Shown here piece after piece: positions 10,214 through 49,875 of a stretch of 57,948 nucleotides of DNA. The DNA comes from Chloroflexota bacterium. GTDB taxonomy: Bacteria; Chloroflexota; Anaerolineae; DTLA01. Location of the stretch: contig JACIWU010000010.1 of the NCBI GenBank assembly GCA_014360805.1, forward strand, positions 1-57,948, written 5' to 3'. Below the pieces are notes generated by a model. That model saw nothing but the letters and a program-made list of their open reading frames with translations. It was not told the origin of the DNA and ran no database searches. Position numbers and translations under genes: made by a program. Numbering within the stretch: the stretch's first letter is position 1; the number at the start of each line of letters is the position of its first letter.

Positions 10214-10241
10214 GAAGGGCGAACGCCATCGTTCGCCCTTC
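10214..10241 (-). terminator. Intrinsic terminator after the small secreted protein gene
   Basis: A perfect 12-bp stem pairs 10214-10225 with 10230-10241 around a 4-nt loop (10226-10229). On the minus strand the stem is followed by TCTTTTCG, a short T-rich tract. It lies 21 nt downstream of the stop at 10263 and separates that gene from the two-component pair. Confidence 0.8.
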
Positions 10242-10262
10242 CCCATTGCTGCGGGATGCTCG

Positions 10263-11966: not shown

Positions 11967-11983
11967 CCCTGGGAGTCCTGTCC

Positions 11984-12733: not shown

Positions 12734-12755
12734 TCCAACCAAGGGAGAATGCACC

Positions 12756-13016: not shown

Positions 13017-13029
13017 AGGAGGTTGGGGA

Positions 13030-13350: not shown

Positions 13351-13452
13351 CGCCTGCGCCGGGAACCCGGCGGGCCCGTGCGTCGTCTACCAGATGGACG
13401 CCCGCAAGCGCGAAGGCCGCCTGCGGGCAAGACACATCTGGAGGATAGCGAG

Positions 13453-23798: not shown

Positions 23799-23836
23799 AC
23801 CGATGGGAGAAACGATCGCGTGAAGGAATGCATCGG

Positions 23837-25126: not shown

Positions 25127-25161
25127 CGCACGCCAACCCGTAACAGGAGGCAGGTGCTACC

Positions 25162-26529: not shown

Positions 26530-26593
26530 GGCCGCGGGGTGTGGGCGTTCATGGGGCGCTCACGCGGCCCGCATCTGTGATGTGGAGTAGGCA

Positions 26594-27547: not shown

Positions 27548-27566
27548 TCCGAGGGAGGAACAAGCC

Positions 27567-33101: not shown

Positions 33102-33200
33102 GCCGTCTATCCGTTCTATGCGTCTCGGCGGTGAAAATTCGTTCGCGCAGATTCGCGTTATTCGCGGTTGAATCCCCTCGCCGGCGTACCGGGCAACGAA
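33102..33200. repeat. Intergenic element with GCGAAT periodicity
   Basis: Read on the minus strand, this spacer contains GCGAATAACGCGAATCTGCG and a following ACCGCCGAGACGCA-like stretch. Similar sequence recurs between genes in many environmental genomes as a non-coding dispersed repeat (from memory). No gene is supported here. Confidence 0.4.
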
Positions 33201-34124
33201 TCACAGCGCCGCGACGCGCGCGTAGGCCGAAAGCAGCGCCCGCGCCTCGGCTTCTGCAATCTGGCTCCGCGCCAACCGCCGCCGAATTCGGGCGCCGTCC
33301 ACCCGCATCAGCAGCCGCACCCAGCGCCGCACCCATCCGGCGTACCGCGCCCCGCGGTGCTTCTCGTACAGGCGGAAGCGGCTACGCCACAGCGCCACGA
33401 ACATCTCCTCGCGGAATCGGCGGGTCGTCCCGGCGCCGTGGTGCATCACTTCCGCCGTCGGCACGCACAGCACCTCCCACCCTGCCTTGCGCATCCGCCA
33501 GCACCAGTCAATCTCCTCGCAGTACATGAAGAAGCCCTCGTCCAGCGGCCCCACCTGGCGCACCGTCTCGGCGCGCACCATCAGCGCCGCCCCCAGCGGG
33601 TGATCCACCGGAAACGGCTCCGCGCCCTGGTACAGGCGGCGCGGGTAGCGCCCGTTCACCCGCGAGTCAAGCAGGCGGGGATGGAGCGGGAAGAAGTCCA
33701 GGAAAATCTGCGCGAAGCCGGGGAACCGAAAGGCCGAGTGCTGGAACGAGCCGTCCGGGTACACCAGCCGCGCACCCACCGCGCCCACATTGGGCCGCGC
33801 ATCCAGCACGCGCACCAGGGCGCCCAGGGCGTCGCCGCGCACCTCGGCGTCGGAGTTCAGCAGCATGACGTGCCGGGCGTCCGAGCGGGCGATGGCCTGA
33901 TTGTTGGCGGCGGCGAACCCGCGATTGTCGGCGTTGGCGATGAGGCGCGCCTGGGGGAACTCGGCCCGCACCATGTCGGCGCTGCCGTCCGCCGAGGCGT
34001 TGTCCACCACCCACACCTCGCCGCGCAGGCCCGACCGCGCCAGGCCATCCAAAGCCGAGCGCACGCACGCCCGCGTCAGGTCTCGCGTGTTGTAACTCAC
34101 GATGATGATGGAGAGATCTTGCAT
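33201..34124 (-). CDS. Family 2 glycosyltransferase (rhamnosyltransferase-like)
   Basis: A 307-residue GT-A enzyme. SIIIVSYNTRDLTRACV, VVDNASADGSADMV, NRGFAAANNQA, the LLNSDAEV metal site, and EEIDWCWRMRKAGWEV near residue 210 follow the order of WbbL/RfbN-type rhamnosyltransferases. The C-terminal helices are basic and may touch the membrane. It probably elongates a surface polysaccharide together with the other GT2 gene. The ATG at 34124 touches the heptanucleotide repeat array. Confidence 0.9.
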   Translation of the reverse strand: MQDLSIIIVSYNTRDLTRACVRSALDGLARSGLRGEVWVVDNASADGSADMVRAEFPQARLIANADNRGFAAANNQAIARSDARHVMLLNSDAEVRGDALGALVRVLDARPNVGAVGARLVYPDGSFQHSAFRFPGFAQIFLDFFPLHPRLLDSRVNGRYPRRLYQGAEPFPVDHPLGAALMVRAETVRQVGPLDEGFFMYCEEIDWCWRMRKAGWEVLCVPTAEVMHHGAGTTRRFREEMFVALWRSRFRLYEKHRGARYAGWVRRWVRLLMRVDGARIRRRLARSQIAEAEARALLSAYARVAAL

Positions 34125-34242
34125 AGCCAGTAGCCTTCAGCCATTAGCCACTAGCCTTTAGCCATTCGCCTTTAGCGCTGGGCCACTGGCCAATCGCCTT
34201 GCGCCTCGGGCTAAAGGCTAACGGCCAACGGCAAACGGCTAG
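34124..34242. repeat. Array of 17 degenerate heptanucleotide repeats
   Basis: The 119-nt spacer divides exactly into 17 seven-base units. The left half has plus-strand consensus TAGCCNN (TAGCCAG, TAGCCTT, CAGCCAT, TAGCCAC, and so on). The right half turns into the inverted form GGCTAA/CGGCNAN. The array begins at the start codon of the upstream-reading glycosyltransferase and ends over the stop codon of the lipoprotein gene. It resembles the short tandemly repeated repetitive sequences known from cyanobacteria. Confidence 0.85.
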
Positions 34243-35438
34243 TATGCAATGTCAATCGTCTGCGCGTCCACGTGATCCAGCAGAATCCGCACGTCCTCGT
34301 GGATCAGGCCGGCCCAGAAGTGGGGCGAGGTTCTGGGCGGCTTGTCGGTGATGCGGATGAAGCCGGTTACGGTGGCGCGCTGGCCAGGCATCAGGTACTT
34401 GCCCTCGCCGATGACCGTCAGTTGGTCGTCGGGCGCCAGCGCCCAGCGGTACGGATAGGGCCGCCCGCTGCTGTTGCCCTCAAAGTCAATGCCCACACGC
34501 CAGGCCCCCGGCGATTCGGCATAGCCCAACGTGTTGAAGTTCTGGCTGCTGGTGTACAGCGTCCCCGGCGCAGGGCCTGTCGTTCGCACCGGCACCGACC
34601 CGATATTCTCCACGGTCAGGGTGAAGGCGAGAACCTGCCCGATGGGCACCACCCTGGGATAGAACTCCACCGCCGCCTGCACGATGTCCACGCGGGGCAC
34701 GCCGCCGTCGGCGATCTCCAGCGTGCTCGTAACCACGGTGAAGTTGCCCACCTTGTCCCGCGCCTCGGCCCGCACCTCGTACAGGCCGTCGGGCGGCGGC
34801 GTCGCGCCCTCATCCACGCCCCCGGCGTAGTCGTAGATGTGCGTCCCGACCTCGCCGGGCTTCACCACGCCTTCCTGCTCGGCCAGCGGGAACCGATTGC
34901 CGTCCTTATCCACCAGGAACACGCGCACATCGGCGGGTTTGGTCAGGTAGTAGGACACCTTCACGCGGTCGTCGTACCCGTCCTGGTTCGGCGTGAACCG
35001 TTGCGGGTACACGCTGAAGTTCAGCAACTCGGGTGGGGTCGTGTCGGCGTCGCGCAGCGACAGCGTGCGGCTGACGCGGTGCGTGCGGCCCTCGCTATCC
35101 ACCGCCTCCACCACCAACTCGTAGTCGCCGTCGGGGAGCATTCGGCCGTCCACCACCCCGCCAAAATCCACGCCATACCGCCCCGCCGAGCGTCGCTGCG
35201 CCTTGCGGAAGTAGTGTCGCCCTCCCTGCGCGTCCACCAGGTAGATGGACAAGTCGGCGTTGCCCGTCAGCCGATAGGAGATGCGCGTTACATCGGTTAC
35301 GCCATCGGCGTTGGGCGTAATCTGGCTTGGGCTGACATCCACCTCCGACAGGAGCGGACGCGCCCCGCATCCGACCAGGAGCAGTGCCGCCAGCGCCAGA
35401 AAACCCACCAGGAACGGAACCCAGACTGACTTCCTCAA
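34239..35438 (-). CDS. Exported lipoprotein with FlgD-type Ig-like domains
   Basis: A 399-residue predicted lipoprotein: lipobox LLLVGCGA with Cys24. Two similar Ig-like modules follow, each opening with an Asn/Asp-rich signature (ITPNADGVTDVTRISYRLT and FTPNQDGYDDRVKVSYYLT) like the FlgD/CHU_C-type beta sandwiches. A third C-terminal beta domain from about 250 begins VDIVQAAVEFYPRVVPIGQV. A binding or envelope role is likely; no enzyme motif is seen. The TTG at 35438 follows GGAGGAGG and overlaps the MFS stop (TTGA), so the lipoprotein is coupled to the transporter. Confidence 0.8.
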   Translation of the reverse strand: MRKSVWVPFLVGFLALAALLLVGCGARPLLSEVDVSPSQITPNADGVTDVTRISYRLTGNADLSIYLVDAQGGRHYFRKAQRRSAGRYGVDFGGVVDGRMLPDGDYELVVEAVDSEGRTHRVSRTLSLRDADTTPPELLNFSVYPQRFTPNQDGYDDRVKVSYYLTKPADVRVFLVDKDGNRFPLAEQEGVVKPGEVGTHIYDYAGGVDEGATPPPDGLYEVRAEARDKVGNFTVVTSTLEIADGGVPRVDIVQAAVEFYPRVVPIGQVLAFTLTVENIGSVPVRTTGPAPGTLYTSSQNFNTLGYAESPGAWRVGIDFEGNSSGRPYPYRWALAPDDQLTVIGEGKYLMPGQRATVTGFIRITDKPPRTSPHFWAGLIHEDVRILLDHVDAQTIDIAY

Positions 35439-36739
35439 GACACCTCCTCCACCTTGCGCGAGGCCGCTGCCACCGCCTTGGCCCTCTCCGTGCGCACCAT
35501 ATAGACGCTCAGCCCGGCCATCGCCAGGACGATGAAAGCAATGGTAATCAGAACCTGCTGGATGCCCCAGATGTCGGCCAGCCCTCCCGTGGCGGGCATC
35601 GGCAGCGTGGATGCCGCATTGGCCAGCACGATCTGCGTGGAGATCACCCTGCCCCGCATGTAGGGAGCGGGGCGCTCCTGCAAGATTGTGCGCGCGGGAA
35701 TCATCGTCAGCGCGAACCCAAAGCCCGCGAGGGCAACGGCGACCGCCAGGCCCAGCAAATGCAGCCCCTTCAGCATCGTGAGCAGCGAGAAGCCCAGCAG
35801 CCCCGCCCCGAATAGCGTCAACCCCAGGGCCGACCACGCCTGCCGCGACATGCGCAGCCCGTGGCGGCTGGAGATGAACATCAGGCCGCCGACGAACCCC
35901 AGGCCCGCGGGCAGCGCCGCATACGCTACATCGGCCACGTGCTTGCCCAGGATGCGGTTGGCGAAACCGGGCGCCAATGTGGACACCGCTAGCACCGACG
36001 TGGCGGCTAGCACCATCTGGATCACCGCCAGCCACACGAAGCGGTCGCTGGCGATATAGGCCCAGCCCTGCCTCAAGTCGGCCAGGGCGGAGAAGAATCC
36101 GTTCTTGACCGTCGGCTTGGTCGGGTCAAACTCCGAACCGCTGCGCGGGAGGCCGGCGATGGCCGCCCACGACAGGACATACAAGACGGTGCTCACGACG
36201 CCCACGAGCCACGCCCCGCCGAGTTTTAGCAGAATTGGCGCGATGAGGATCACGCCCACGCCCTGCGAGACCACCGACGACAGGTTGAACAGCGAGTTGG
36301 CGCCCATCAACTGCTCCGCCGTTACGTAGCGCGGGATCGCTGACGCCTCCGCCGACACGACAAACTGCGCCAGCGCCGACAGCAGGAAGTTGCAGATGTA
36401 GATCACCCACAGCAGCGACGACGTATGCGGCGCGAAATACATGGCCAGCGCGAACCCAATCCCGATGGGAACCCGCAGGATGCACCCCAACTTGATGACC
36501 GCGATGCGGTCGTGGCGGTCCACATACGGCCCCGCGATCAGCCCGAAGAGGAACCCGGGCAGCGTGCTGGAGAAGATCATCAGGCCAACCTGCGTGCTGG
36601 AATGGGTGATCTCCTCCACCAGCGCCATGGAGGCGAAATACAGCGCAAAGTTCCCCACCAGCGCCGTGAATTGCGACAGGCAAAGCCCCCTCACGCAGGA
36701 GTTCGCCAATAGCCGTCTCGGTGCAGCGTACTCTTTCAA
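35435..36739 (-). CDS. Major facilitator superfamily transporter
   Basis: A protein of about 434 residues with 12 predicted helices. The MFS loop motif GLIAGPYVDRHDRIAVIK lies between helices 2 and 3, and the second half has PARTILQERPAPYMRGRVIS, as in the MFS_3/MFS_1 (macrolide-efflux-like) group. The substrate is unknown. The TTG at 36739 gives the normal family length; an in-frame ATG at 36853 would add 38 residues and overlap the neighbouring glycosyltransferase end, so the start is uncertain. The stop overlaps the lipoprotein start. Confidence 0.85.
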   Translation of the reverse strand: MKEYAAPRRLLANSCVRGLCLSQFTALVGNFALYFASMALVEEITHSSTQVGLMIFSSTLPGFLFGLIAGPYVDRHDRIAVIKLGCILRVPIGIGFALAMYFAPHTSSLLWVIYICNFLLSALAQFVVSAEASAIPRYVTAEQLMGANSLFNLSSVVSQGVGVILIAPILLKLGGAWLVGVVSTVLYVLSWAAIAGLPRSGSEFDPTKPTVKNGFFSALADLRQGWAYIASDRFVWLAVIQMVLAATSVLAVSTLAPGFANRILGKHVADVAYAALPAGLGFVGGLMFISSRHGLRMSRQAWSALGLTLFGAGLLGFSLLTMLKGLHLLGLAVAVALAGFGFALTMIPARTILQERPAPYMRGRVISTQIVLANAASTLPMPATGGLADIWGIQQVLITIAFIVLAMAGLSVYMVRTERAKAVAAASRKVEEVS

Positions 36740-36849
36740 TGCCCCCTCACAGAAGGTTGGTGTGCAGCGGATCGCAGCGCAGCCCCGCATCGTCGCGCAG
36801 ACAGTGCGCCTGTGGCCTCCCGGCGCTTCCCCTAGAGGCTCCCATTTTA

Positions 36850-39720
36850 TCACCGTATCGCAATCTTTGCCAACAAGACCCTATCGCCTGTAGCCTGCCC
36901 GTCGGCCCCCAACACGAGCAGTCGCGGGAAGGCCGGATCGCCGGCGTCGTACAGGCCTACTTCAATCCAATATTCGCCGGGCGGGGTGTCGGGTTTCACA
37001 TACAGCGTGTACTGGTCGGCGATATACTCGCCGGGCAGCCAGCCTGTGGTCGGTCGGTTGCCGCCCTGCGGGATGCTGTCCTGCTGCGCCCAGATTCGGT
37101 TCTCGGCGTCAATCAGGTGCACGAACACGGTGTAGGACTTGGGCACCTCCTCGCGCGCAAGCCAGTACAGCGTAACGCGAATCGGCTCGCCCGCGGCAAC
37201 GGTTGTCGGCTCCACGTCCGCGCCGTACAGTTCTGCGTAGATGTCAAACCGCGCCGAGACGATCATCTGCGCCTGCGGCGGGGTGAAGACCCGCGCCGGC
37301 CCGCTCACCTCCACCGCGCCGATGGGTACAGAGTCCCCGACGGCGGCGCCGCTCGCCCGTTCGCGCAGCGCCACCTTCAGCACGTAGGTGCCGGGCGCGA
37401 CCGCCGCCGGAACGGGTACCCTCGCCACCCACCGCACCGGGCGCCCCGGCCCCCACGCCGACGTGGGGTAGGCCGAGGTCCCCAGCGAGAACACCTTCTC
37501 CGCGACGACTGCCCCATCCGAGCCCGCCAATGCCACCGCCGCATCGTAGTCGGCCGCGACCGTCCCCGCCGCCTCCCAGAACGCGACGATGGACACCGTC
37601 TCCCCGGGCGACGCCTGTTGTCGGTCCATCTGCCATGCGACAAGGCCCAGGTTCCCGCCCAGTATCACAGGGTTGCGCCCGTTCGGAAGGTCGGCAACGT
37701 CGGCGGGTTGCAGCGCTCGGACCGGCACCGGGCCGATGCGCGCCGACTGCCCTTGCGGCGCTCCGGCCGCGTCCAACACGTCCAGCTGCTCGCCTGTGGC
37801 CTCGTCGTACACCACCACTTCCAGGAAATACTCCCCTGGCGGCGTCCCCGGCAGCGCCGGCGGCGGATTGCTCCCGAAGACAGGCTCCCCCGGCCGCCAG
37901 CGGCTCGTGGGGAAGTAGTAGCCGGCGGGCCGCCGATCCAGCGATCCCCAGAACTCGCCCGCGCCGTCCCGCAGCCGCAAGGACACCGAGTAGTCGCGGT
38001 CCAGCGGTTGCAGCGCCTGCCAGTACAGCAGCAAGTGCCCGGCAATGCCGACGGAGAACCCCAGCAACTCCACGCGATTGCCGAAATTCACCCGCTGCGG
38101 GTACTGCACCTGCGGCTCGCTGGAGAAATGCGCGCCCTGGTTCAACGCCCAATGCACGTACCGCACGCCCCAGAATTGCGGCCCCGAAGGCAGCCGCGAC
38201 CCCTCCTCATTCAGCATCATCGTCAGGATGCCGTTGGGGTCCGCGATGTGGTCCTGCCAGAAGACCACCCACACGCCGTCCTTGCCCGCCAGGATGCGGT
38301 TCAGGTCATCGGCCACGCGATACGTCAGCACGTTCTCCACGTCCAGGATCGGGTCGGGCGGAAGCGGGTGCCAGTTGTCGGGGCCGAAGTAGTACTGGAA
38401 CACGGGGAAGAAATGCCCCGCGCACAGGATGACCGTCTCGTTGGGGCCGATGCGCTCCTTGATATATCGCGCCACGTTGCGGAAATCGTCCCGTTGGAAG
38501 CGCGGGTCAAAGTAGTTGTTGTAGTTGCCATACGCGAACACGCCGAGCGCGAATACGAGCGCCACGGCGCCCACGCCGCGCGCGGCCCACCGCGCCCACG
38601 TCGTGCGGATTCGGCGCGCGTCCAGCATGAAGGCAAGCCCCGCGCCGAGGATCATGAAGAACCCAGGCGACGCGAACAGCAGGTGCCGCGTCTCAAACTT
38701 GGGCCGGTTCAGAAACAGCGCGATGAACAGTCCCACGGGCAACGCCGTGTACAGCGTCGGAAACAGCAGCGCGAACCAACGGGGCAGCGGCGATTCTCCC
38801 AGGGGGCCGGTGCGCCGAAGCGCGGCCACGAGGAGCGCCACCGCTGTCAACGCCGTTACCGCGACAAATGCCGGCAGGAGCGCCTCCGCCGTCTGGCTGA
38901 GCAGCGTCTCGCCGGTCCAGTAGGACAAGAAGGCCCGCCGCACCACTCCGCCGATGCCCAGCGTCCCCTGCCAGTAGCCGCGATACAGGCCGAGGTTCTT
39001 CGCCGCCAGCAGGATCCAGGGGACGTGCAGCAGCGCGAATGCCGCGGCCACCGCAAGCGCCTCTGCCAGCACCGCGGCGCGCCGAACCCAGGCAGCCCAG
39101 CCCAGCAGGAAGGCCACGGCGAGAAAAACCAGCAGGAGCGCGCCGGTCATGTGCGAAAGACTCACGCCCGCCGCAGCGAACAGCAGCCCCACCCAATACA
39201 GCCCCCGACGCCTGCTGCGCTCGGTGAGCACCTTGAGCAGGAACCACGCCGCCACCAGGCCGAGACACGTTAGCAGGGCATAGGTGCGCGTCTCCTGGGA
39301 GTACCAGATGTACAGCGGGGATGCCGCCACCAGCGCGGCGGCCAGAAAGCCCGACAGGCGACCGAATAGCGCCTTGCCCACAAGGTACATGAAGGGGATA
39401 GTGAGGGTTCCGGCCAGCGCCGAGAGCGACCGAACGGCGGCCTCGCTGGTGCCGAACGCGGCTTGCCAGAAGTGCAGCAGATAGTAGTACAGCGGCGGGG
39501 CGACATCGCGGGCGGTCCAGGCCGTGGCCTCGCGCAGGGACATGGAGGCCAGATACACGCTGAACCCCTCATCGTACCACAGGCTGTGGGAACCCAGGCG
39601 AAACGCACGAAGGGCCGCGCCTGCCAGTGTCAGCAGTGCGGCGGCCCACGTCCAGGCATGTACGCGGCGGAGCCGATTTCCGATGACTCTCGGAGCCTGC
39701 GCAAGCATAGCGTGTATCAT
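36850..39720 (-). CDS. GT39/ArnT-like membrane glycosyltransferase with C-terminal beta domains
   Basis: A protein of about 956 residues. The N-terminal half has about a dozen helices and the GT-C signature SHSLWYDEGFSVYL in the first extracytoplasmic loop (catalytic Asp/Glu), followed by DVAPPLYYYLLHFW. The C-terminal half (from about 500) is soluble and beta-rich, with repeated PPGEYxLxVxLYD-type strands. Such enzymes use polyprenyl-phosphate sugars as donors. The ATG at 39720 lies 38 nt after the preceding stop; 39708 is an alternative. It is the last gene of a five-gene membrane cluster. Confidence 0.85.
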   Translation of the reverse strand: MIHAMLAQAPRVIGNRLRRVHAWTWAAALLTLAGAALRAFRLGSHSLWYDEGFSVYLASMSLREATAWTARDVAPPLYYYLLHFWQAAFGTSEAAVRSLSALAGTLTIPFMYLVGKALFGRLSGFLAAALVAASPLYIWYSQETRTYALLTCLGLVAAWFLLKVLTERSRRRGLYWVGLLFAAAGVSLSHMTGALLLVFLAVAFLLGWAAWVRRAAVLAEALAVAAAFALLHVPWILLAAKNLGLYRGYWQGTLGIGGVVRRAFLSYWTGETLLSQTAEALLPAFVAVTALTAVALLVAALRRTGPLGESPLPRWFALLFPTLYTALPVGLFIALFLNRPKFETRHLLFASPGFFMILGAGLAFMLDARRIRTTWARWAARGVGAVALVFALGVFAYGNYNNYFDPRFQRDDFRNVARYIKERIGPNETVILCAGHFFPVFQYYFGPDNWHPLPPDPILDVENVLTYRVADDLNRILAGKDGVWVVFWQDHIADPNGILTMMLNEEGSRLPSGPQFWGVRYVHWALNQGAHFSSEPQVQYPQRVNFGNRVELLGFSVGIAGHLLLYWQALQPLDRDYSVSLRLRDGAGEFWGSLDRRPAGYYFPTSRWRPGEPVFGSNPPPALPGTPPGEYFLEVVVYDEATGEQLDVLDAAGAPQGQSARIGPVPVRALQPADVADLPNGRNPVILGGNLGLVAWQMDRQQASPGETVSIVAFWEAAGTVAADYDAAVALAGSDGAVVAEKVFSLGTSAYPTSAWGPGRPVRWVARVPVPAAVAPGTYVLKVALRERASGAAVGDSVPIGAVEVSGPARVFTPPQAQMIVSARFDIYAELYGADVEPTTVAAGEPIRVTLYWLAREEVPKSYTVFVHLIDAENRIWAQQDSIPQGGNRPTTGWLPGEYIADQYTLYVKPDTPPGEYWIEVGLYDAGDPAFPRLLVLGADGQATGDRVLLAKIAIR

Positions 39721-39757
39721 ATCACAAGCCCGCAACCCAACAAAATCGCCCGCGCGC

Positions 39758-41263
39758 TCACCGCAGCCGGTAGACGGCCATGTTATCGCCACCCGCCTGA
39801 ATCGTCCACGGCGAGCGCGTCTGATAGACCATGACCACGTCGGGCCGCGCCGTCATCTCCGGATACCACGACGGAAACGTTACCAGGTACGAGGCCCCCC
39901 GCGCCCGAATGTACTCGTACAGGCGGCCCTCGTCGCGGATGAACGGCACCACCTCCGGGCTGACCAGCCCCGCCAAGTCCACCAGGCGCCGCCGCGTGAA
40001 GTATCCCACCGCCCCGATGTCGTGCGCCGCGATGAGGGCATCGCTGGGCGTGTTGCGATCCAGCCACTGCGCCACATCCACCATCTCGGTGTCAATGATG
40101 CGGACGTCGGCCAGGTATGCCCGCGCGCCCACGAGCACAAACACCGCCAGCACCGCGCACGCCGCCAGCGCCAGCGCGCGCGACAGGATGCGTCCCGCCC
40201 GACCTTTCGCCCTCGCTGCCAGCAACGCCGTGCCTGGCGCGCCATAGACCAACAGCGCGGGAATCACCGGCATCTCGTACCGCCCGTGCTGGTACGTTAC
40301 CGGCAGGCGCGTCGCGTACAGCACCACGGTGGCCGCCCACCACAGCAGCGGCAGGAACCCCATCCAGTCGCGCCGCCTGCCGATGTCCCGCCACGCCAAG
40401 GCCATGCCGGGCACCAGCAGCACCATGCCCCCCACGAACTGCACCCCCGCCACCCGCATCAGCCGCACCAGCCACGGCACTGCCTCGGCGACCTCGCGAT
40501 ACTCGGCCTGCTTGGCGTAGAACGTGTTGGGCAGGATCGCCCCCGACGCCTTCCAGTTGAATAGAAGATAGGGGACGGCGAGTAGAAGGAAGCCGCCCAC
40601 CGCCAGCCCGTAGCGCATCAGGGCCGCGCCGCGCCTGCCGTGCGCCCAGTCGCCGCGCCGAACTGTCAGCAGGCACGCCCCGCCCAACCCCAGCGGAAGC
40701 AACCCCTCGGGCCGCGTGAGGAACGCCGCGCCGCCCAGCAGCCCCCAGCCCAGCCATGCCCGCGCGCGATCATCCCGTGCCAGGGCCATTGCGCCGCCCA
40801 GCACGGCCAGCGCCAGCGCCGCGAACAGCGCCGTCTCCATCCCCGACGCCCCGGCCCAAAGCAGATGCCACTCCAGGGCACACGCCAGCGCCGCAACCCA
40901 GCCCACGCCGAGGCCCGGGAACAGCCGCCGCGCAACCCAACCCGCGACCACAGCCACCGCCCCCAGCGACAGGCCGCCCACGACCGCCGTCCACACGCGG
41001 AAAGGCGCGCCCAACGCATACCCCAGCGCCAGCGCCAGCGTCCACAGCGGCGCGGTGGAGCCTGCGCTCACCTCGCCCGGAACGTAGGCCCAGGCCCCCG
41101 TCTCCACCAGGTTGCGCGCGTAGGTCTGGTGAATCCAGCCGTCGTCCAGGGGGAAGCCGGGGTAGCCTTGCGCCGCCGCGTAGCCCACGTAGGCCAGCGC
41201 CCCCGCCACCCCGACCACCGCCGCTGCAAGAATGCCCCTATCGCTCCCCTTCGGCCATTTCAT
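39758..41263 (-). CDS. GT-C-type membrane glycosyltransferase
   Basis: A 501-residue polytopic protein. FPLDDGWIHQTYARNLVETG in the first outer loop is the acidic pair expected of GT-C enzymes. This is followed by about ten helices and a C-terminal soluble segment (RNTPSDALIAAHDIGAVGYF, PEMTARPDVVMVYQ). The ATG at 41263 overlaps the previous gene by 26 nt, and AGAAGG lies upstream. It probably transfers a lipid-linked sugar to a surface acceptor; specificity is unknown. Confidence 0.85.
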   Translation of the reverse strand: MKWPKGSDRGILAAAVVGVAGALAYVGYAAAQGYPGFPLDDGWIHQTYARNLVETGAWAYVPGEVSAGSTAPLWTLALALGYALGAPFRVWTAVVGGLSLGAVAVVAGWVARRLFPGLGVGWVAALACALEWHLLWAGASGMETALFAALALAVLGGAMALARDDRARAWLGWGLLGGAAFLTRPEGLLPLGLGGACLLTVRRGDWAHGRRGAALMRYGLAVGGFLLLAVPYLLFNWKASGAILPNTFYAKQAEYREVAEAVPWLVRLMRVAGVQFVGGMVLLVPGMALAWRDIGRRRDWMGFLPLLWWAATVVLYATRLPVTYQHGRYEMPVIPALLVYGAPGTALLAARAKGRAGRILSRALALAACAVLAVFVLVGARAYLADVRIIDTEMVDVAQWLDRNTPSDALIAAHDIGAVGYFTRRRLVDLAGLVSPEVVPFIRDEGRLYEYIRARGASYLVTFPSWYPEMTARPDVVMVYQTRSPWTIQAGGDNMAVYRLR

Positions 41264-42842
41264 ACAGCACGACCTTCTCCCCCAGAGCATCGTAGAACAC
41301 CTGCCGCAAGATCCAGCCCGGCGGCGTCTGGCCCTTATCGTAGATTGTGTTCAGAAAGCGCGGATGATTGTACTCCAACACCAGCCAGCGGACGCCGTAC
41401 TTGGCCTGCACGAAGCGTAGAGCCTCCATGCCGTCCGACGGGATCGCGACGCACTCGCGCCCGGCGTAGTAGTAGAACGCCGGCGGATCGCCGACCATGA
41501 CGCGGTCAGCGGCCTCGGCGTGGGCGTCCAGCCATCGGGCCACCACGGGATACGCATCGTAGCGCAGGTTCCACGGCGCCACCGCCGGTGGCCTGCCTCC
41601 GATGGCCCGCGCGTACAGCACCCCGCTGACGGCCACCGCCATCGCCACCAGCGCCACTGCGAAGACGCGATAGGCTTGCGTCGCGTTCCATGACGCGCGC
41701 CGCGCGCCTGCCCATGCTATACCCGCGCGCAGGCCCGGGAAGACCGCCGCGAACAGGAACGGCACCAGCGCCCCCGCCGAGTGGAAGAAACTGCCCCGCA
41801 CCCCCGGAAAGGTGAAGGCGAAACTCATCGCCACGAGCAGCAGCGTCCCGAACGCCATCGCCGGCCACAGGGAGACGCGCCGCCGCGCCGCCCACAGCCC
41901 CCAGGCCGACGGCCCGACCAGCACCACGAGGAGCGCCCCCACCAGCGTGATGAGGTTGGACACCAGCGCGGTCGCCTTGGACGCAACGATGGAGGCGAAG
42001 CCCCACGACAGGTAATCGGCAAGGGTTGGAATGTGCCGCGCCGCGTACAGTTCGTCGTAGTCGCGGAGGAACAAGGCGCTCAGCCCACCTCCCGCCAGGG
42101 GCGAACCGGCGACTGCCCAGTTGCGCGCGAACCACGGCCCCATGACCGCCGCGTACCCCACGAGCATCCAGAGCGCCGCGCGCGCAGCCGCCCTGCGCCC
42201 CATGATGCCCCGCGCCCCCGCCCACAACAAACCCAACATGCCGACCAGAATCAGCAGCACCCCGTCGGGCCGCGCCAGGTGCCCCAGCCCCGCGCAAACG
42301 CCTGCCGCCAGCGCCCGCCACCTGCGCTCGTGCGCCCGCGACATCAGCCACAACGCGCCGCACCCCGCCACCGCGAACGGCGCGAAACTGTCCGGCGACG
42401 TCCAGTAGGCCGCGTAGAAGCCGGCGAGCAGCGTCAGGAGCGCCGACGCCGCCGCCTCGCGCGGGATTGCGCCCATCTGCCGCGCCAGGCCAAAGGTGAG
42501 CAGGGGCAGCGCTGCCGCGCACACGATGAACGGCAAACTGGCGGCGTCGTAGGAATCCCCGAACAGCCGAATGGCTCCTGCCGCCAGGATGCTCGGCAAC
42601 GGCGCCCAGTACAGGTGGCTGGGGTGCGGGATGTCCTCGGGCGCGTCCAGGTAGTTCCACACGAACGGCTCGGTGAACCCCTGCCCGCCGGCGATGCGCT
42701 CGCCCATCGTCAGGTGGTAGTAGGCGTCCATGTAGCCGGGGCTTCGCTTGGGCAGGTGCAGGAGCAACGCCAGCGCCAACCCCGCGACGACTAACGCCGC
42801 GAGGGCAACCCACTGCCTGCCGGGCCGCGCGACGGTGTTCAT
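41238..42842 (-). CDS. GT-C-type membrane glycosyltransferase
   Basis: A 534-residue polytopic protein. The first outer loop carries PGYMDAYYHLTMGERIAGGQ, followed by EPFVWNYLDAPEDIPHPSHL, a pattern seen in archaeal and bacterial STT3/GT-C-like proteins. About eleven helices and a short C-terminal soluble domain (YDAYPVVARWLDAHAEAADR, VRWLVLEYNHPRFLN) follow. GGAGGAGG precedes the ATG at 42842, which overlaps the stop of the preceding gene (ATGA). Confidence 0.82.
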   Translation of the reverse strand: MNTVARPGRQWVALAALVVAGLALALLLHLPKRSPGYMDAYYHLTMGERIAGGQGFTEPFVWNYLDAPEDIPHPSHLYWAPLPSILAAGAIRLFGDSYDAASLPFIVCAAALPLLTFGLARQMGAIPREAAASALLTLLAGFYAAYWTSPDSFAPFAVAGCGALWLMSRAHERRWRALAAGVCAGLGHLARPDGVLLILVGMLGLLWAGARGIMGRRAAARAALWMLVGYAAVMGPWFARNWAVAGSPLAGGGLSALFLRDYDELYAARHIPTLADYLSWGFASIVASKATALVSNLITLVGALLVVLVGPSAWGLWAARRRVSLWPAMAFGTLLLVAMSFAFTFPGVRGSFFHSAGALVPFLFAAVFPGLRAGIAWAGARRASWNATQAYRVFAVALVAMAVAVSGVLYARAIGGRPPAVAPWNLRYDAYPVVARWLDAHAEAADRVMVGDPPAFYYYAGRECVAIPSDGMEALRFVQAKYGVRWLVLEYNHPRFLNTIYDKGQTPPGWILRQVFYDALGEKVVLYEMAEGER

Positions 42843-45211
42843 TCCCGCGCACCTCCTCCGACTGCCTTTCGCCTGCGCCGCGCCAGAGGCCAAAGGAGCA
42901 CCCCCGCCGCCAATGCCGCCGCTCCGGCGGAGACACCGCAACCGACGCGCCACGTCGCCGGCGCAAACCGCAACTCCACGACGTGCTCCCCAGACCGGCT
43001 CATGGGCACGGCCATGAATGCGTAGTCCGCGCGCAGCACGGGAACCGGCGCGCTGTTGTCCCACGCGCGCCAGCCGCGATGGTACGTCTCGCTCACCACC
43101 AGGTAGGCAGGCCCATCCGTGCGCGCGCGAACCGACAGGCCGTTCTGCGACGCTGCCCATGAGAGCACCGTCCCCGCTTCCGCGCCTCCGGTTGTGAGCG
43201 CGGGCGGTGATTCCAGCCAAACGCAGTCGGGACGGAAGTCGCCCTCGCGCAGGATGCGATCCCACTCGTCGGGCGTGGAAACCCGCCGCGCGCACGACAC
43301 GACGCGCACGCGCGGGAACACCGCGTCGTTCTCGCCGATGACCATGCCTGGCGTGTCCCGCGCGACGCGCAGCCCCGCGATCGGCGTGCGCGAAATGACA
43401 TACCGCACGTTCATCAGCCCCAACAGGCGCTTCTGCGCGTCGCCCGCCGCCGACTCGGCGCGCCGCCGCAGTTCCACATGGTGCGCGTCCAGCAGCGGGT
43501 CGTAGTTGCTGGCCGTCTCAATCCCCTCAAGGGCGCACAGGTTGGGCAACAGGCTGGCCCGCAGTCCTCTGACGGTCGCCTCGTCCTGCGGCCCGAGGTC
43601 GGCGAAGCGCGTGAAGCCGGAGAACATCGTGTTGTACTCGTAGGACTCCGTGGTGAGAATTCGCGACGTGCCCGACGCCTGGCGTAGGAACGTCGGGATG
43701 TCGGCATCGCCCGCGAAGGCGCTCTGCGGCGCGCTTGGGATGAGCGGCCGCCCGAATGTGGCCAAATCCACCAGCACGATGACCACCGCCGCCCACCTCC
43801 ATGCGGCCACGCGGCGCGGATCGCCTCGCCTGGGGCACGCCGCTGCCCACGCGCCGATGGCCGCCGCCGTCGCCGCCAGCCTCAACAGCGCCGCCGGAAA
43901 CGTGCTCTCGCTGAAGGGGGGCACCTTCTGAAGGATAGCCAGCATCGCCGAGGCCGCCAACCCGCCGGCCAGCGTCAGCCGCCCCCAGAAGACCCATGCC
44001 CGCGAAGGGGACAGGCGCTCGGCCCCGAATCCGGCCAGCATCGCCGCCGCGAAGGTGTACAGGAACAGGAACCGCGCGGGCGCCTGGAACCAGGCAACGC
44101 CGGGAAACCATCGGTACGCCAGCAGGTACAGCGGACTGTGGCTTCCCAGCGCCATCGCCACCGCGACCACGGCAACCGCCAGCAGAAAGCCCGTCGGCGT
44201 CGGGCCGGCCGGAACCGAATCGGGGCGAGGCGGCTTGCGGGCGAACCGTCGGGCGAGGCTGCTCGCGCCCACCAGCGCGGCCAGCACAAGCGGCAGCACG
44301 CCGATGAAGCCGCAGTCCTCCCAGTAGTTGGCGTATCCCCAATAGTTGCCCTGCGCGGGATTGCCGAACAAGTCGGGCACGAGGAACGCCAGGAGATGCC
44401 ACGGCCAGAGCGAGTAGGTCATGGCGCGCTCGTAGTCGGGGCCTGACGGGCGCTGCGACTGCGCCAGGAGTTCCGCCGTGGGCAGCGCCTGCGCCGCGCC
44501 CAGGAGCAAGACCAACGCGACGGCTAGTCCCAGCCAACCCACTGCGGCCAGGCTTCCCCGCGCCCGTCGCGCATCGGGAAGTCCCCCCCAGCCCCGCCAT
44601 AGCGCATACGCGCCGAGGAACAGCAGCGCGTAGTACAGCATCTGCGCGTGGCCGGCGCACAGGAACACCGCCAGCGTCAGCGCCAGCCCGACCGCCCGCG
44701 TGAGCGATGGCCGCCGACATAGCCGCTCCGCCATCAGGACGCTGGCCGGCAACCAGGGGTAGGCGCTCGTCATGCTGCCGAACTGCGCCCGCGAGACCAC
44801 AAACCCCGCCAACCCGTAGGCCAGGCCCGCCACCAACGCGGCCGCCGGCCGCAAGCCCCACGCCCGCGCCAGCGCGTAGGCGAACACCCCCGCCAGCGCC
44901 AGATGCAACGCGAACAGCGTGCTCATCGCCTGGGCAGTCGGCAGCGCCAGGTACAACCAGTTCAGCGGGTACAGCGCCGCCGACTGGAGGTTTGCCAAGA
45001 GCGGCGCGCCGTTGCCCAGGGCGTGCGTCCACAGCGGCGCGTGGCCGCTGCGTATGGCGTCGGCCACCAACCGGTGCCACGGCAGGAACTGGAGCGACGC
45101 CGTGCCCCAGTAGAGCACGCGGCCCCCGAACAGCAAGTCCCAGGACACCAGCGCCGAGGCCAGCACAACGGCGCCGACACCAACCGCATCCCGCCAGGCC
45201 ACTCGCCTCAT
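42839..45211 (-). CDS. YfhO-family membrane protein
   Basis: A 790-residue protein. The N-terminal ~500 residues hold about 12 helices, with FLPWHRLVADAIRSGHAPLW, then LGNGAPLLANLQSAALYPLN, the YfhO family signature. The C-terminal third includes an extracytoplasmic beta domain (YLVVSETYHRGWRAWDNSAP) and a final helix near 765-785. YfhO proteins are GT-C-like and linked to glycosylation of lipoteichoic acid or other surface polymers in Gram-positives. The ATG at 45211 has GGAGGG 5 nt upstream and overlaps by 4 nt with the upstream gene. Confidence 0.88.
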   Translation of the reverse strand: MRRVAWRDAVGVGAVVLASALVSWDLLFGGRVLYWGTASLQFLPWHRLVADAIRSGHAPLWTHALGNGAPLLANLQSAALYPLNWLYLALPTAQAMSTLFALHLALAGVFAYALARAWGLRPAAALVAGLAYGLAGFVVSRAQFGSMTSAYPWLPASVLMAERLCRRPSLTRAVGLALTLAVFLCAGHAQMLYYALLFLGAYALWRGWGGLPDARRARGSLAAVGWLGLAVALVLLLGAAQALPTAELLAQSQRPSGPDYERAMTYSLWPWHLLAFLVPDLFGNPAQGNYWGYANYWEDCGFIGVLPLVLAALVGASSLARRFARKPPRPDSVPAGPTPTGFLLAVAVVAVAMALGSHSPLYLLAYRWFPGVAWFQAPARFLFLYTFAAAMLAGFGAERLSPSRAWVFWGRLTLAGGLAASAMLAILQKVPPFSESTFPAALLRLAATAAAIGAWAAACPRRGDPRRVAAWRWAAVVIVLVDLATFGRPLIPSAPQSAFAGDADIPTFLRQASGTSRILTTESYEYNTMFSGFTRFADLGPQDEATVRGLRASLLPNLCALEGIETASNYDPLLDAHHVELRRRAESAAGDAQKRLLGLMNVRYVISRTPIAGLRVARDTPGMVIGENDAVFPRVRVVSCARRVSTPDEWDRILREGDFRPDCVWLESPPALTTGGAEAGTVLSWAASQNGLSVRARTDGPAYLVVSETYHRGWRAWDNSAPVPVLRADYAFMAVPMSRSGEHVVELRFAPATWRVGCGVSAGAAALAAGVLLWPLARRRRKAVGGGARE

Positions 45212-47457
45212 CGCTTCCCTCCGAACGCCGTCGCGACGCCATAGGCGAGGAACGTCAGCGCCGAGACCGCCGCGCCCGCGTAGAACCAAATCGGCGCGTA
45301 GGCCAAACGGACGCGATGCGCCCCTGCCTCGTCAATCGGCACGGCGCGTAGGAGAAAATCCGCCCGCATCACTGGCGCGGGCCGCCCGTCCACCCAAGCG
45401 CGCCACCCAGGATACCAGATTTCGCTTACCACCAGCGCCCCCGGCCCCGAAGCCTGCACGTCCAACTCCAGACTGTTCGGAGAGCGGGCCACCACCCGCA
45501 CCCTGTCGTCGGCGGCGTCCCCGCCGGCGGTGGCGGCGAATCCCGACCATTCGGCGCCGATCACGGCCTGCCGCGCCAAATCCAACTGCGCGAGTCGGCC
45601 CAACGCCTCGGCGTCGCCGCACGCTTGCGTTTCGTGCACAAGCCACGCCCGCGGCATGGCCTGCGTATTCCGGTACACGTACGCGTCCGCCACCCGCCCA
45701 ACGAACTCCCAGCCGTCCACCTGCACCGGGAATGCCGCCGCCAGGTGCGTTACGTTCAGCAGGCCCAACAGGCGGGCGCTGGGCTGGCTGTCGGAAAAAG
45801 CCGTTTCCGTCGGCGCGTCGGGCGGGAACGGCGGAATGGTAACCCTGTACCCGGCATCCGCATAGCCCCCGGCCAGCGCCATGAAATCGCGGTAGCGGCG
45901 CAGTTGGGTCGGATCCACCCCGTCCGCCATCTCCAAACCGTAGCGCCATGCCGTCTGCTGCGGGACGCTGTAACTGGGCGAGTAGATGCGCCCACGGTCT
46001 GGCAGGCTCGCCAGGTACGCGGCGGCGTCCCGCCCCGGCGCGACCACCTCGTCCACCGTCGCCAGATGCCACCAGGCCCGCGCCGCGCCGGTTGCATCCG
46101 CAAATGCCGCGCACAGGACCAGGACGGCGGCGATTCGGGCGGCTCGGCCCCGCATGGCCAGCGCCAACGAGACCACGCCGACCGCGCCCGCGATCCCGAA
46201 ACGCAGGTGGGCACCGACCTCGCCAAGCCCCGCTGCCGCTGCGAACCCGCCCAGCGCGCCGAGAGCGGTCAGCGTCGCGCCCAGCGCCAGGCTTGCCGGC
46301 CGCCTCGCCTGCGGGTCGCGGCAAATGGCAGCGGTTGCGTCCAGGTCCATCCCCGCGAGCGCGCTCACGCACCCCAGCGCCAGAATCCAGAACCGCGCCG
46401 GAACCCGCAACAGGCCCAGGCCCGGCAGCACATGGAGCGCCAGGCCGTAGAGCGGCGTGTGCGCGCCCAGGGCCAGCGCCGCCGCAAGAACTGCGCATCC
46501 CGACAGCGTGCAGGCCATCCTGCGGCGCGGCCCCCAGATCGCCAAGACCGCCGGCGCGATCGCCGTGGCCCCCAGGTACGTGGCCCACTCGTGCGTGGCG
46601 GGTTCCAGCGGCAGCGCCGCCCCGAGCAGGGCAGCGGGCGGCAGCGACAGGGCCATGGCCTCCTGGGGCGACAACGCGGCACGCGTGGCCTGACCCAGCA
46701 ATTCCGCCAAGGGCAGGGCAAGAATAGCCGACCCGCCTGCGAAAGCCAGCGCCACGGCGATGATCGTCGCGCTCCATTGCCGCCATAACACCGATGGGCG
46801 CCGCGACAGGCTCGTTATCCCGCGCGCCAGCCCGATGGCCGCGGCAGTCAACACCGCGTAGTAGCCCATGCGCACGTCGGCGAGGAAAGCCGCCGCGAGC
46901 AGGAGGCCCAGCCGCCAGCCGTCGCGCCAGGAACGCGCGGCAAGCGCCGCCCACGCCGCCCAGGGCAGCCACGCCCACCCGTACACGATGCTCACATGTC
47001 CAGCGCCCAGATGGGCCGCCAGGCGCGCCCCGAAGGAGAAGACCACAGCCGACAGCAGCGCCCCTTCCGCCGACAGCCCTGCGCCTCTCCGCATCAGCGC
47101 GAACATGCCCAGCGCGCCGAATCCCACGTGTAGAAGCGCCAACACGGCGAAGGCCGTCTCCGTGGGCAAGGCAGCATGGAGCCAGTTCGGCGGGTAGTGG
47201 AAGCCCGCCAGTGGGTTGCCCGCTAGCGGCTGGCCGCTGAAATACGTTGCCATCCAGAACGGCCACTCGCCCCGCCCCCGAACCGACTCCCGAAGGAGCG
47301 ACTCCATCGGCCAGTGGCTGATGGCCAGGTCCGAGAACTCCCCTCGCGCCGGCATGATGAGGCGGTCGGCATGGATGGGCAGCGGCCACAGGCTGATGAG
47401 CGTCAGGGCGCCGATGAGGAGCGCAGCCCACACCCACTCGCGACGGGTCGTCCTCAT
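45208..47457 (-). CDS. YfhO-like membrane protein (second copy)
   Basis: A 749-residue paralogue of the following gene. The family tract is present (ISHWPMESLLRESVRGRGEW, FSGQPLAGNPLAGFHYPPNW), then about 12 helices, an extracytoplasmic domain ending ALVVSEIWYPGWRAWVDGRP, and a last helix before the C-terminus. GGGGAG precedes the ATG at 47457; the start overlaps the previous stop (ATGA). Two adjacent, diverged YfhO-like proteins suggest two transfer steps or a heteromeric enzyme (inference). Confidence 0.86.
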   Translation of the reverse strand: MRTTRREWVWAALLIGALTLISLWPLPIHADRLIMPARGEFSDLAISHWPMESLLRESVRGRGEWPFWMATYFSGQPLAGNPLAGFHYPPNWLHAALPTETAFAVLALLHVGFGALGMFALMRRGAGLSAEGALLSAVVFSFGARLAAHLGAGHVSIVYGWAWLPWAAWAALAARSWRDGWRLGLLLAAAFLADVRMGYYAVLTAAAIGLARGITSLSRRPSVLWRQWSATIIAVALAFAGGSAILALPLAELLGQATRAALSPQEAMALSLPPAALLGAALPLEPATHEWATYLGATAIAPAVLAIWGPRRRMACTLSGCAVLAAALALGAHTPLYGLALHVLPGLGLLRVPARFWILALGCVSALAGMDLDATAAICRDPQARRPASLALGATLTALGALGGFAAAAGLGEVGAHLRFGIAGAVGVVSLALAMRGRAARIAAVLVLCAAFADATGAARAWWHLATVDEVVAPGRDAAAYLASLPDRGRIYSPSYSVPQQTAWRYGLEMADGVDPTQLRRYRDFMALAGGYADAGYRVTIPPFPPDAPTETAFSDSQPSARLLGLLNVTHLAAAFPVQVDGWEFVGRVADAYVYRNTQAMPRAWLVHETQACGDAEALGRLAQLDLARQAVIGAEWSGFAATAGGDAADDRVRVVARSPNSLELDVQASGPGALVVSEIWYPGWRAWVDGRPAPVMRADFLLRAVPIDEAGAHRVRLAYAPIWFYAGAAVSALTFLAYGVATAFGGKR

Positions 47458-49007
47458 GGCCGCTCCCCTGAGGCCCACACCTCAACCGTCCCGCACCGCG
47501 CCAACAGGCGCAGCCCTATAGCCTGCGGCGAGAACGACGCCGCCATCGCCTTCTCCCTGGGCCCCCAGATCACGAACGCCACGCCGTGCTCGGCGAGAAA
47601 GCGGCGGCACGCACTCTCGTCGGCCTGCGCAAAGAATCGCTCCAGCGCGGCTTTCTTCTCCGCAGCGCGAATCGTCTCATAGGGATGGCCGTACACCACC
47701 GGGTTGCCGGCCCACCCGGGCACGATGGTGCTAAGCGTCGGCGACGCCGCCACGACTCCGCGCCCGCCGCTGGCATCCCGAAGCGCGGTCAGCGCGCACG
47801 CCTCGTCGCCGCTCACGAACACGCGCGCCTCGCCGCCGACCGCGCCCACGATGCCCAGGATCAGCAGCATCGCCGAGGACAGGCTCGCCGCCGCCTGCAC
47901 CACGGCGAACGCGAGATTCCCCAGGCGCGGCTTCGCCCGCGCGGTCAAGGCGCCGAACCCCGCCGCGGCCAGAATCCCGACCGGAACCTCCAGCCCGATG
48001 GAGAATCGCCGCTGAAGCGCAAATGGGACGTACATCCCCACAGCCGCGACGCCAACCCACACCAACACCAAATCCAGCGGCGAGGGCCGTTGCCGCAGGG
48101 CCGCCCAAACGCCCACCGCCGCCAGCGCCGCCATCAACCCGTAGCCGGCCAGCCAGTGCCACGCGGGCGGCGACGCGGTAACGTTTTGCGCCGACCACGC
48201 CGCCAGCGCCCCGTTCGCGCCGTACACCCAGGCGTCGTACCCCAGCACGGGCGCGCCTGCCACGCCGGCCACAACGGCGACGCCCAGCGGCCTTCGCCAG
48301 CCCTGCTGCCGAAGGCGTTGCAGCATCGCGTAGGCCCCCAGCACCGCCACGATGACCGGCAGGGCCAGCGGCTGCACCACCGCCATCGTCAGCCCGCACG
48401 CCGCCGCCCACGCCAGCCGCCCAGGCCGCCCGTCGGCCAGGCTCATGTCGGCCAGCGCCGCCATCAGCCCGATGGCCAGCGGAAAGTGCGGGTTGGACAG
48501 CGCGCTGTAGAACGCAAACGCCTCGGGAATCCACAGGTCGGGCAGGAGCGGGTCGGCGGTCGGGAACAGCCAGCCAAACCCCGCGCCCAGCGCCGTGAGC
48601 AGGAAGGCTCGCCGCCGCGCCGCGCCGCCGAAGAACCGCCCCAACAAGCGCCACACCAAGGCGCACATGAAGGCCGACGCGAGAAGCCGCGCCAGGTGGA
48701 AGGTCAGGGGGAGCGACAGACCCAGCGCCCGCGCCAGATGTCCGAGCAGCAGGTAGAACGTGAAGATGAACGCGCCGTCGTGGGGTTCCTCGGTGAACGG
48801 TAGATGGAACAGCCACGCGCCGTCCCAGCCCTGCCGCATCTTGGCCAGGTACGAGTGGCCGTCCCAGGGGTTGTACAGCACGCCGGTGAACACCAGCCCG
48901 TTCGGAGCGGCAAGCCATGCGACGGCATAGGGGACAAGAGTCAGCGCCAGCAGCGCGCAGACGCAAAGCGCGATCCAGAGACGCTCGTTCGGCTCGCGGG
49001 TGGGCAT
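47454..49007 (-). CDS. Polytopic membrane protein, GT-C-like
   Basis: A 517-residue protein with about 11 helices. An outer loop has YNPWDGHSYLAKMRQGWDGA, then HLPFTEEPHDGAFIFTFYLL, with acidic residues where GT-C enzymes bind donor. The short soluble C-terminus (AEKKAALERFFAQADESACR) resembles those of bacterial integral-membrane glycosyltransferases of unknown specificity. It is the first gene of the cluster: GGAGAG lies before the ATG at 49007 and a promoter at 49038-49065. The stop overlaps the next start. Confidence 0.8.
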   Translation of the reverse strand: MPTREPNERLWIALCVCALLALTLVPYAVAWLAAPNGLVFTGVLYNPWDGHSYLAKMRQGWDGAWLFHLPFTEEPHDGAFIFTFYLLLGHLARALGLSLPLTFHLARLLASAFMCALVWRLLGRFFGGAARRRAFLLTALGAGFGWLFPTADPLLPDLWIPEAFAFYSALSNPHFPLAIGLMAALADMSLADGRPGRLAWAAACGLTMAVVQPLALPVIVAVLGAYAMLQRLRQQGWRRPLGVAVVAGVAGAPVLGYDAWVYGANGALAAWSAQNVTASPPAWHWLAGYGLMAALAAVGVWAALRQRPSPLDLVLVWVGVAAVGMYVPFALQRRFSIGLEVPVGILAAAGFGALTARAKPRLGNLAFAVVQAAASLSSAMLLILGIVGAVGGEARVFVSGDEACALTALRDASGGRGVVAASPTLSTIVPGWAGNPVVYGHPYETIRAAEKKAALERFFAQADESACRRFLAEHGVAFVIWGPREKAMAASFSPQAIGLRLLARCGTVEVWASGERP

Positions 49008-49037
49008 AGAACTCTCCGGTTGCAATGTCGCGCGTGC

Positions 49038-49065
49038 ATTCTACCACGAACTGGCCTGGCGTCAA
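49038..49065 (-). promoter_or_regulatory. Promoter for the membrane glycosyltransferase cluster
   Basis: On the minus strand a -35 TTGACG (49065-49060) and a -10 TAGAAT (49043-49038) are separated by 16 nt, about 30 nt before the first gene of the cluster. Confidence 0.65.
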
Positions 49066-49099
49066 CGGGCCGGTGGGCGCAGCGCCGCCACACCCGCAA

Positions 49100-49128
49100 T
49101 TGCCTCGCCTTGCCCCTCATGGTATAAT
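49100..49128 (+). promoter_or_regulatory. Promoter for the zinc-ribbon/GlcD/GlcF genes
   Basis: A -35 TTGCCT at 49100-49105 and a consensus -10 TATAAT at 49123-49128 are separated by 17 nt, about 40 nt before the GTG at 49168. It is back-to-back with the cluster promoter, 34 nt apart. Confidence 0.75.
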
Positions 49129-49167
49129 GGGCCGCGCAAATGCGCCAACACGCACGCGAGGGGCCCA

Positions 49168-49875
49168 GTGGAAATCACGCCGACCCTGTACCGCCTCCAG
49201 CAGGCCGAACTGGAACGGGCCGATTGCGCCCAACGGCTCGCGCAGGTCATCGCCACCCTCGGAGACTCCTCCCAGGTGGCAGCCGCCGACGCCCAGGCCA
49301 AAGCCGCCCAGGCCGCTTTGACCCAGGCGCAGACGGCCGTCCGCGAACTGGAACTGGAAATCCAGAGCGTCAAGACCAAGCGGGCCAACACCGAGGAGCG
49401 CATGTTCAGCGGCAAGGTTACCAATCCCAAAGAACTGGCCGGCCTTCAGAGCGAAAGCGAAGCCCTCCAGCGCCGCATCGCGCGGTTGGAAGACGACCTA
49501 CTTGAGGCGCTCATCCGCTTGGAGGAGGCCCAGGCGCAGCACGCCGCCGCCAGCGCTCGCCTCGCCGAGGTTACGGCGCAGCGCGAGGTTCAGGTTGCGG
49601 ACCTCACGCGCCAACGCGAGGAACTTGAGCGGCGCATTGCCGCGCTGGATGGCACCATCGCGCAAATCCGCGCCGCCCTCAACCCCGAGAGCGTAAGCCT
49701 CTACGAGTACCTGGCGTGCCGCAAAGGCAACCGCCCGGTCGCGTTACTGACCCGCGCCAACGTGTGCAGCGCCTGTGGCGTTTCGGTGCCCATCGCCATC
49801 GCGCAGCAGGCCCGCGACCGCTCCCAAGTGGCCTTTTGCCCCTCGTGCGAGCGCATCCTGCACGTTGAGGGATAG
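49168..49875 (+). CDS. Coiled-coil zinc-ribbon protein (C4-type, DUF/CT398-like)
   Basis: A 235-residue protein. A long antiparallel coiled coil (about 1-175, rich in Ala/Glu/Gln/Arg) contains the conserved TKRANTEERMFSGKVTNPKE segment. It is followed by a C-terminal zinc ribbon with CSACG and CPSCERILH. This is the architecture of the bacterial C4-type zinc-ribbon family (Pfam zf-RING_7-like), whose role is unclear; a nucleic-acid or chaperone function is suggested for relatives. The GTG at 49168 is the only good start, with GAGGGG upstream. Confidence 0.88.
   Translation: MEITPTLYRLQQAELERADCAQRLAQVIATLGDSSQVAAADAQAKAAQAALTQAQTAVRELELEIQSVKTKRANTEERMFSGKVTNPKELAGLQSESEALQRRIARLEDDLLEALIRLEEAQAQHAAASARLAEVTAQREVQVADLTRQREELERRIAALDGTIAQIRAALNPESVSLYEYLACRKGNRPVALLTRANVCSACGVSVPIAIAQQARDRSQVAFCPSCERILHVEG

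Follow-up and report, generated by a model that had tools for sequence, protein, structure and literature searches.

The question raised by this locus is what a tandem row of large membrane-protein genes of the GT-C glycosyltransferase type does, and how far the order of its members is conserved. The window, meaning the whole stretch of DNA analysed, is one complete contig of 57,948 bases from a draft genome (3.24 Mb in 154 contigs) of the class Anaerolineae, Chloroflexota. From position 49007 down to 36850 it carries six minus-strand membrane-protein genes, named g1 to g6 (Table 1). The initial annotation had counted five genes; six are present, since four junctions already join g1 to g5, and the gene that it placed fifth, 37 nt further on, is g6. 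Its reading of the junctions was exact in frames and positions, with ATGA overlaps at 47454-47457, 45208-45211 and 42839-42842 and a 26-nt overlap of g4 and g5 at 41238-41263, and its description of the products as polytopic is borne out directly for g1-g5 and through the PMT_2 match for g6. Overlapping junctions are also frequent in relatives, indicating that the arrangement in the window is not due to chance.

The same annotation had all of these genes expressed from one promoter, which holds for g1-g5 and probably fails for g6. The sigma-70-like promoter before g1 (TTGACG-16-TAGAAT, 49065-49038) and the accompanying Shine-Dalgarno sequence are both retained in two genus mates, three species in total. 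Directly before g6, an extended -10 element (TGATATGAT in the window) occurs in all three species of the genus. The genus mate G001 has its g6 on a different contig, where it follows not g5 but a scpA-like gene, the product of which we take from its sequence to be segregation protein ScpA, with nearly the same -10 element in front. The retention of this element despite the different upstream gene argues that g6 is probably its own unit; with the ATG at 39720 lying within the -10 element, the more likely start of g6 is 39708. Taken together, g1-g5 probably constitute an operon, with g6 as a separate transcription unit starting at 39708.

Table 1. Positions and main properties of the genes and predicted promoters of the array in the 57,948-base window.
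Feature	Position	Strand	Description
g1	47454..49007	-	517 aa; GT-C fold; outside all Pfam families; holds the ancestral first place in the core
g2	45208..47457	-	749 aa; YfhO family; loop-1 Asp43 and His48
g3	42839..45211	-	790 aa; YfhO family; without loop-1 Asp; GT-C model
g4	41238..42842	-	534 aa; PMT_2 GT-C
g5	39758..41263	-	501 aa; unnamed GT-C-like family; partner of g4
g6	36850..39708	-	About 952 aa; PMT_2 GT-C; long C-terminal part; probably transcribed on its own
Promoter of g1-g5	49038..49065	-	TTGACG-16-TAGAAT, TG before the -10; consensus scan; kept in 3 species of the genus
Putative g6 promoter	39716..39745	-	Extended -10 TGATATGAT; kept in 3 species though the upstream gene differs in one
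CT398 / C4 zinc-ribbon gene	49000..49875	+	Divergent from g1; PF24481 and PF02591; flanks the core across the class

Several further genes of the window lie near the array. The minus strand behind g6 (31064-36853) encodes an MFS transporter, a protein in which Ig-like and sorting-type domains are weakly matched, and two GT2 proteins; both genus mates have a gene equal in size to the MFS transporter gene behind g6. The two GT2 genes (33201-34124 and 32358-33101), which lie downstream of the MFS gene, were weighed as candidate donor synthases and rejected, their best matches not being of the DPMS type. On the plus strand, a Tad/Flp pilus cluster (22899-28496) encodes CpaB, a MinD-like protein with a receiver domain, a TadA-type ATPase and two proteins interpreted as TadB and TadC; ComF comes next.

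Family and fold assignments agree with the earlier suggestion of tandem GT-C enzymes, although on evidence that differs from gene to gene: structure models for g1 and g3, curated Pfam families for g2, g4 and g6, and profile comparison only for g5. Both g2 (31.5 bits) and g3 (80.7 bits) exceed the curated gathering cut-off of 28.5 for PF09586 (YfhO), and PF13231 (PMT_2) is matched by g4 with 39.2 bits and by g6 with 55 bits. No Pfam or NCBIfam match was obtained for g1. For g5, no Pfam match exceeded the cut-off and the match to NF047440 was weak, but comparison of its profile with that of g1 (hhalign) gave a probability of 97%. The AlphaFold model of g1 (pLDDT 95.9) returned 25 PDB fold matches at E <=0.001, all of them GT-C enzymes or complexes containing one, including oligosaccharyltransferases (OST; STT3, AglB), ArnT, AftA, AftD and DPY19. 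The model of g3 (pLDDT 93.6) likewise matched only GT-C enzymes at this threshold, with AftD, OST and ArnT as the best and AftA also among them. Query TM-scores at E <=0.001 were about 0.3-0.6 and fold alignments of g1 and g3 with ArnT, AftA, AftD and OST gave about 9-16% identity, values that speak for a shared fold class and not for a close relationship. Searches of the PDB with sequence profiles of g1, g3 and g5 found no clear relative, the only hint being a weak match of g1 to 3vu0 (AglB C-terminal domain). Judged by eye, the C-terminal half of g6 resembles a beta-sandwich-type domain repeated three times.

The GT-C members of multi-component systems are YfhO and PMT_2 proteins, in which an extracellular loop usually bears a DxD or modified DxD motif (PMC8035078). 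The claim that the first outer loops are acidic throughout stands for g1, g2, g4 and g5 and, at the position that counts, falls for g3. Asp49 of g1 is conserved in 63 of 63 sequences, D43 and H48 of g2 are invariant (41/41), as are D39 of g4 (11/11), which also has an R191/D193/G194 motif, and D40 and D41 of g5 (13/13). All 51 g3 homologues have T, V, L or P at the corresponding column, within an otherwise invariant W-G-x-x-x-x-Q-F-x-P-W motif, whereas a YfhO paralogue from the same genome retains Asp in this column. Judged by its sequence, g3 may therefore be a non-catalytic partner. Dedicated non-catalytic partners of GT-C enzymes have been raised as speculation (PMC8035078), and the consistent absence of the catalytic Asp from one YfhO protein beside an intact one would bear on that idea.

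Gene order was followed by searching a g3 profile against about 85,000 species genomes, which yielded 133 relatives, with 80 loci kept. All but one of the 80 carry a title at the level of Chloroflexota or Anaerolineae; the single exception bears the label Bacteroidetes and probably reflects mis-binning of its contig. Order counts were taken from the 52 Anaerolineae loci with at least 6 kb of upstream sequence, and half of these (26/52) show g1-g2-g1'-g3, with a second g1 copy (g1') before g3. A further 17 hold g1 before g3, in the form g1-g2-g3 (nine, the genus mate G002 itself, L069, being among them), g1-g1'-g3 (five) or g1-g3 (three); as genes in relatives were called simply as ORFs, some absences of g2 or g1' may be missed frames or effects of thresholds. 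The remaining loci comprise one g6-g2-g1-g3 and eight with g3 alone; as loci were selected with g3 as the anchor, these eight, which have no g1 upstream, include other contexts. All six genes occur in order in G002, and G001 has g1-g5 across contig breaks.

The history of the core is recorded in the g1 proteins. In a tree of 91 of them, copies at position 1 and copies before g3 are largely split by a branch with 100% support, with two label changes against a mean of about 30 in shuffles, and the five exceptions are loci with only one g1 before g3. The position-matched g1 and g1' clades imply that the duplication predates the spread of the sampled class members and that the array is ancestral. 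Read from these sequences, the core g1-g2-(g1')-g3 goes back to an ancestor of much of Anaerolineae and has been passed on mostly by vertical descent, and the window's genus kept the first g1 copy and lost g1'. A second conserved pair is formed by g4-g5, which are neighbours in several more families of this class and lie a few kb downstream of g3 in two lineages, with a patchy distribution of g5 in the phylum (17/161 genomes at 1e-40). The full row g1-g5 was seen only within the window's genus. The initial annotation had named scattering of the genes in relatives as evidence against its reading, and the outcome is mixed: the core and the g4-g5 pair are each kept far beyond the genus, but their union is found only inside it, and g6 belongs to a very large paralogous family and stands apart from the row. 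The locus thus consists of an old core, a second module (g4-g5) joined to it in the window's genus, and a separately promoted neighbour (g6).

These results bear directly on an ordinary family expansion, in which the many GT-C paralogues of Chloroflexota would be clustered without one shared pathway. Matches of the g6 type number at least 20 in most of the 41 genomes searched and YfhO types about 10 in many, and the attachments of g4-g5 and g6 vary, all as such an expansion would have it; Chloroflexota genomes are rich in GT-C proteins, so the family content as such is ordinary. An expansion is nevertheless unlikely, with the order and the position-specific clades kept across the class, g1, g2 and g3 not being recent duplicates of one another, the junctions overlapping and the promoter conserved. 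The locus stands out in three respects: a gene order kept class-wide, four or five GT-C proteins in tandem, and a conserved YfhO member that lacks the Asp.

The surroundings of the core in relatives give an indication of its role, with neighbour family names resting on one Pfam-scanned representative per cluster. Of the 80 loci, 39 contain a homologue of the zinc-ribbon gene, as a rule immediately upstream of the core and in divergent orientation, with a HEAT-repeat protein behind it in 35. Downstream of g3, a cluster of Bac_transf phosphoglycosyl transferases appears in 22 loci and a Wzy_C (O-antigen-ligase-type) cluster in about 11. In 10 loci g3 is followed by a GT2 gene in the same orientation, accompanied in some by GT87; the GT2 representative matches the archaeal dolichol-phosphate mannose synthase (5mlz, 2.6e-33), and in G003 a DPMS-like GT2 gene lies directly behind g3. 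MoxR and DUF58 genes, which have no obvious glycan role, stand downstream of the core in about 15 loci and count against a glycan reading. On the whole, a putative surface-glycan role fits these neighbourhoods. The initial annotation was right that no sugar-nucleotide, ligase or flippase gene is among the six, and the operon in the window contains no donor, flippase or acceptor genes; in relatives, a phosphoglycosyl transferase, Wzy_C or DPMS-like gene does stand beside the same genes.

A link to Tad pili, a case of the co-occurrence with pilin genes that the initial annotation had proposed to look for, was rejected: despite the Tad genes of the window, Tad ATPase and membrane genes lie near the core in only one of the 80 relatives' loci. 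This count also weighs on a role in protein O-glycosylation, with single sugars added stepwise to secreted or pilus proteins in the manner of streptococcal Pgf, which comprises a GT-A enzyme and two large membrane proteins acting on surface proteins (PMC5856776). The C-termini of g2 and g3 do match PgfM1 and PgfM2, and O-glycosylation-like densities have been described on a filament of a Chloroflexota bacterium (PMC12488501), but the Pgf matches are weak, far below curated cut-offs, and in relatives the core is paired with polysaccharide genes, making this role improbable.

Donor and flippase functions are predicted elsewhere in the genome. In multi-component transmembrane glycosylation a GT-A enzyme, a flippase and a GT-C enzyme act together, and components with distant locus tags are tabulated among the described systems (PMC8035078). 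The window's genome encodes, outside the operon, two DPMS homologues, Wzx-type proteins on contigs C13 and C17, and one GtrA (contig C14) adjoining an O-antigen-ligase-type protein, so that both a candidate GT-A synthase and candidate GtrA/Wzx flippases are at hand. These components match the known logic of such systems, which is not proof that they serve g1-g5.

Two other arrangements of related genes were observed in this genome. On C17, at about 8768-13719 (L156:3769-8720), a DPMS-like GT2 gene is followed by a gene for a 1375-aa protein with about 22 hydrophobic segments, in which a YfhO GT-C part is fused to a Wzx/MurJ-type flippase part (by Pfam; the fusion was checked in this one protein). 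Counted by hand, 20 of 41 genomes have a DPMS-like gene beside a YfhO frame about 1350-1490 aa long. On C13 (L154-L155), a second GT-C cluster includes a DPMS homologue, g4-, g5- and g6-like genes, YfhO-type genes and a Wzx-type flippase gene.

Considering all of these features, a surface glycosylation system dependent on polyprenyl-phosphate-linked sugar, with g3 as a partner, is the best explanation of the array, with a probability of roughly 60%. On the inner face of the membrane, a DPMS-like GT2 enzyme encoded elsewhere would load a sugar, plausibly mannose, onto polyprenyl phosphate, and a GtrA- or Wzx-type flippase would turn the lipid-linked sugar outward. Outside the cell, g1, g2, g4 and g5 would pass the sugar on through their conserved loop-1 Asp to a surface glycan or glycoprotein as the putative acceptor. 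As a YfhO paralogue that has lost this residue, g3 would most likely be non-catalytic, serving in acceptor binding or as a heteromeric subunit. Mannose is favoured as the donor sugar by the DPMS and GT87 matches. A more specific form, put forward tentatively, is an ancestral Anaerolineae GT-C complex in which g1, g1' and g2 would be catalytic and g3 a YfhO pseudo-enzyme binding the acceptor, an outer-face line that would build an oligosaccharide sugar by sugar.

Lipid-linked mannose would equally be used if the array built or decorated a membrane glycolipid or lipoglycan, like the outer mannosyl- and arabinosyltransferases of mycobacteria. GT87 and DPMS-like genes behind g3 in some relatives and the presence of AftA and AftD among the fold matches point in this direction, but GT-C fold matches do not tell acceptors apart, and such a product is rated less likely still than Pgf-like glycosylation. 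The S-layer glycosylation machine suggested by the initial annotation is highly improbable, for although the GT-C fold also resembles oligosaccharyltransferases, this likeness is one of fold class only, none of the six proteins having an STT3 Pfam match, and the SLH domain (PF00395) was absent from 41 of 41 relatives' genomes, with 4 of 14 control genomes positive, which rejects an SLH-type linkage, the scope of this search being S-layers anchored through SLH.

The proposed polyprenyl-phosphate-dependent surface glycosylation system is of interest for the envelope of the phylum, which is atypical and poorly understood. Chloroflexota have no LPS pathway, and their outer layers are thought to be polysaccharide or protein (PMC13319060); the densities that resemble O-glycosylation are reported from a surface filament (PMC12488501). 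The conserved order of the core probably points to an old, undescribed surface-sugar pathway; no paper describing this system was found in the literature searched, which is not proof of absence. The core is also found in cultured genera such as Anaerolinea, Bellilinea and Thermanaerothrix, and provides a concrete, testable gene set.

Among known systems, ArnT, AftA, AftD and OST share the fold class of g1 and g3 and differ from them in sequence, as the low identity of the fold alignments indicates. The YfhO family accommodates g2 and g3, but g3 departs from it in its loop-1 residue, and both sit with g1, a separate family having no Pfam model. The Pgf system of Streptococcus mutans (PgfS-PgfM1-PgfE-PgfM2) is alike in combining a GT-A enzyme with two large polytopic proteins that have extracellular domains, and differs in the very weak similarity, limited to the C-termini, and in its epimerase, which the window array does not have. 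The multi-component transmembrane systems CsbB-GtcA-YfhO, GtlA-GtcA-GtlB and GtrA-GtrB-Gtr resemble the array in their YfhO/PMT_2-type GT-C protein with a loop-1 Asp, and in the DPMS-like GT-A and GtrA/Wzx components found in the window's genome, with a GT-A gene near the core in 10 relatives' loci. Systems of the CsbB-GtcA-YfhO type, however, pair one GT-A with one GT-C enzyme, whereas here the GT-A gene lies outside the operon in the window's genome and four or five GT-C proteins stand in tandem, one of them without the Asp.
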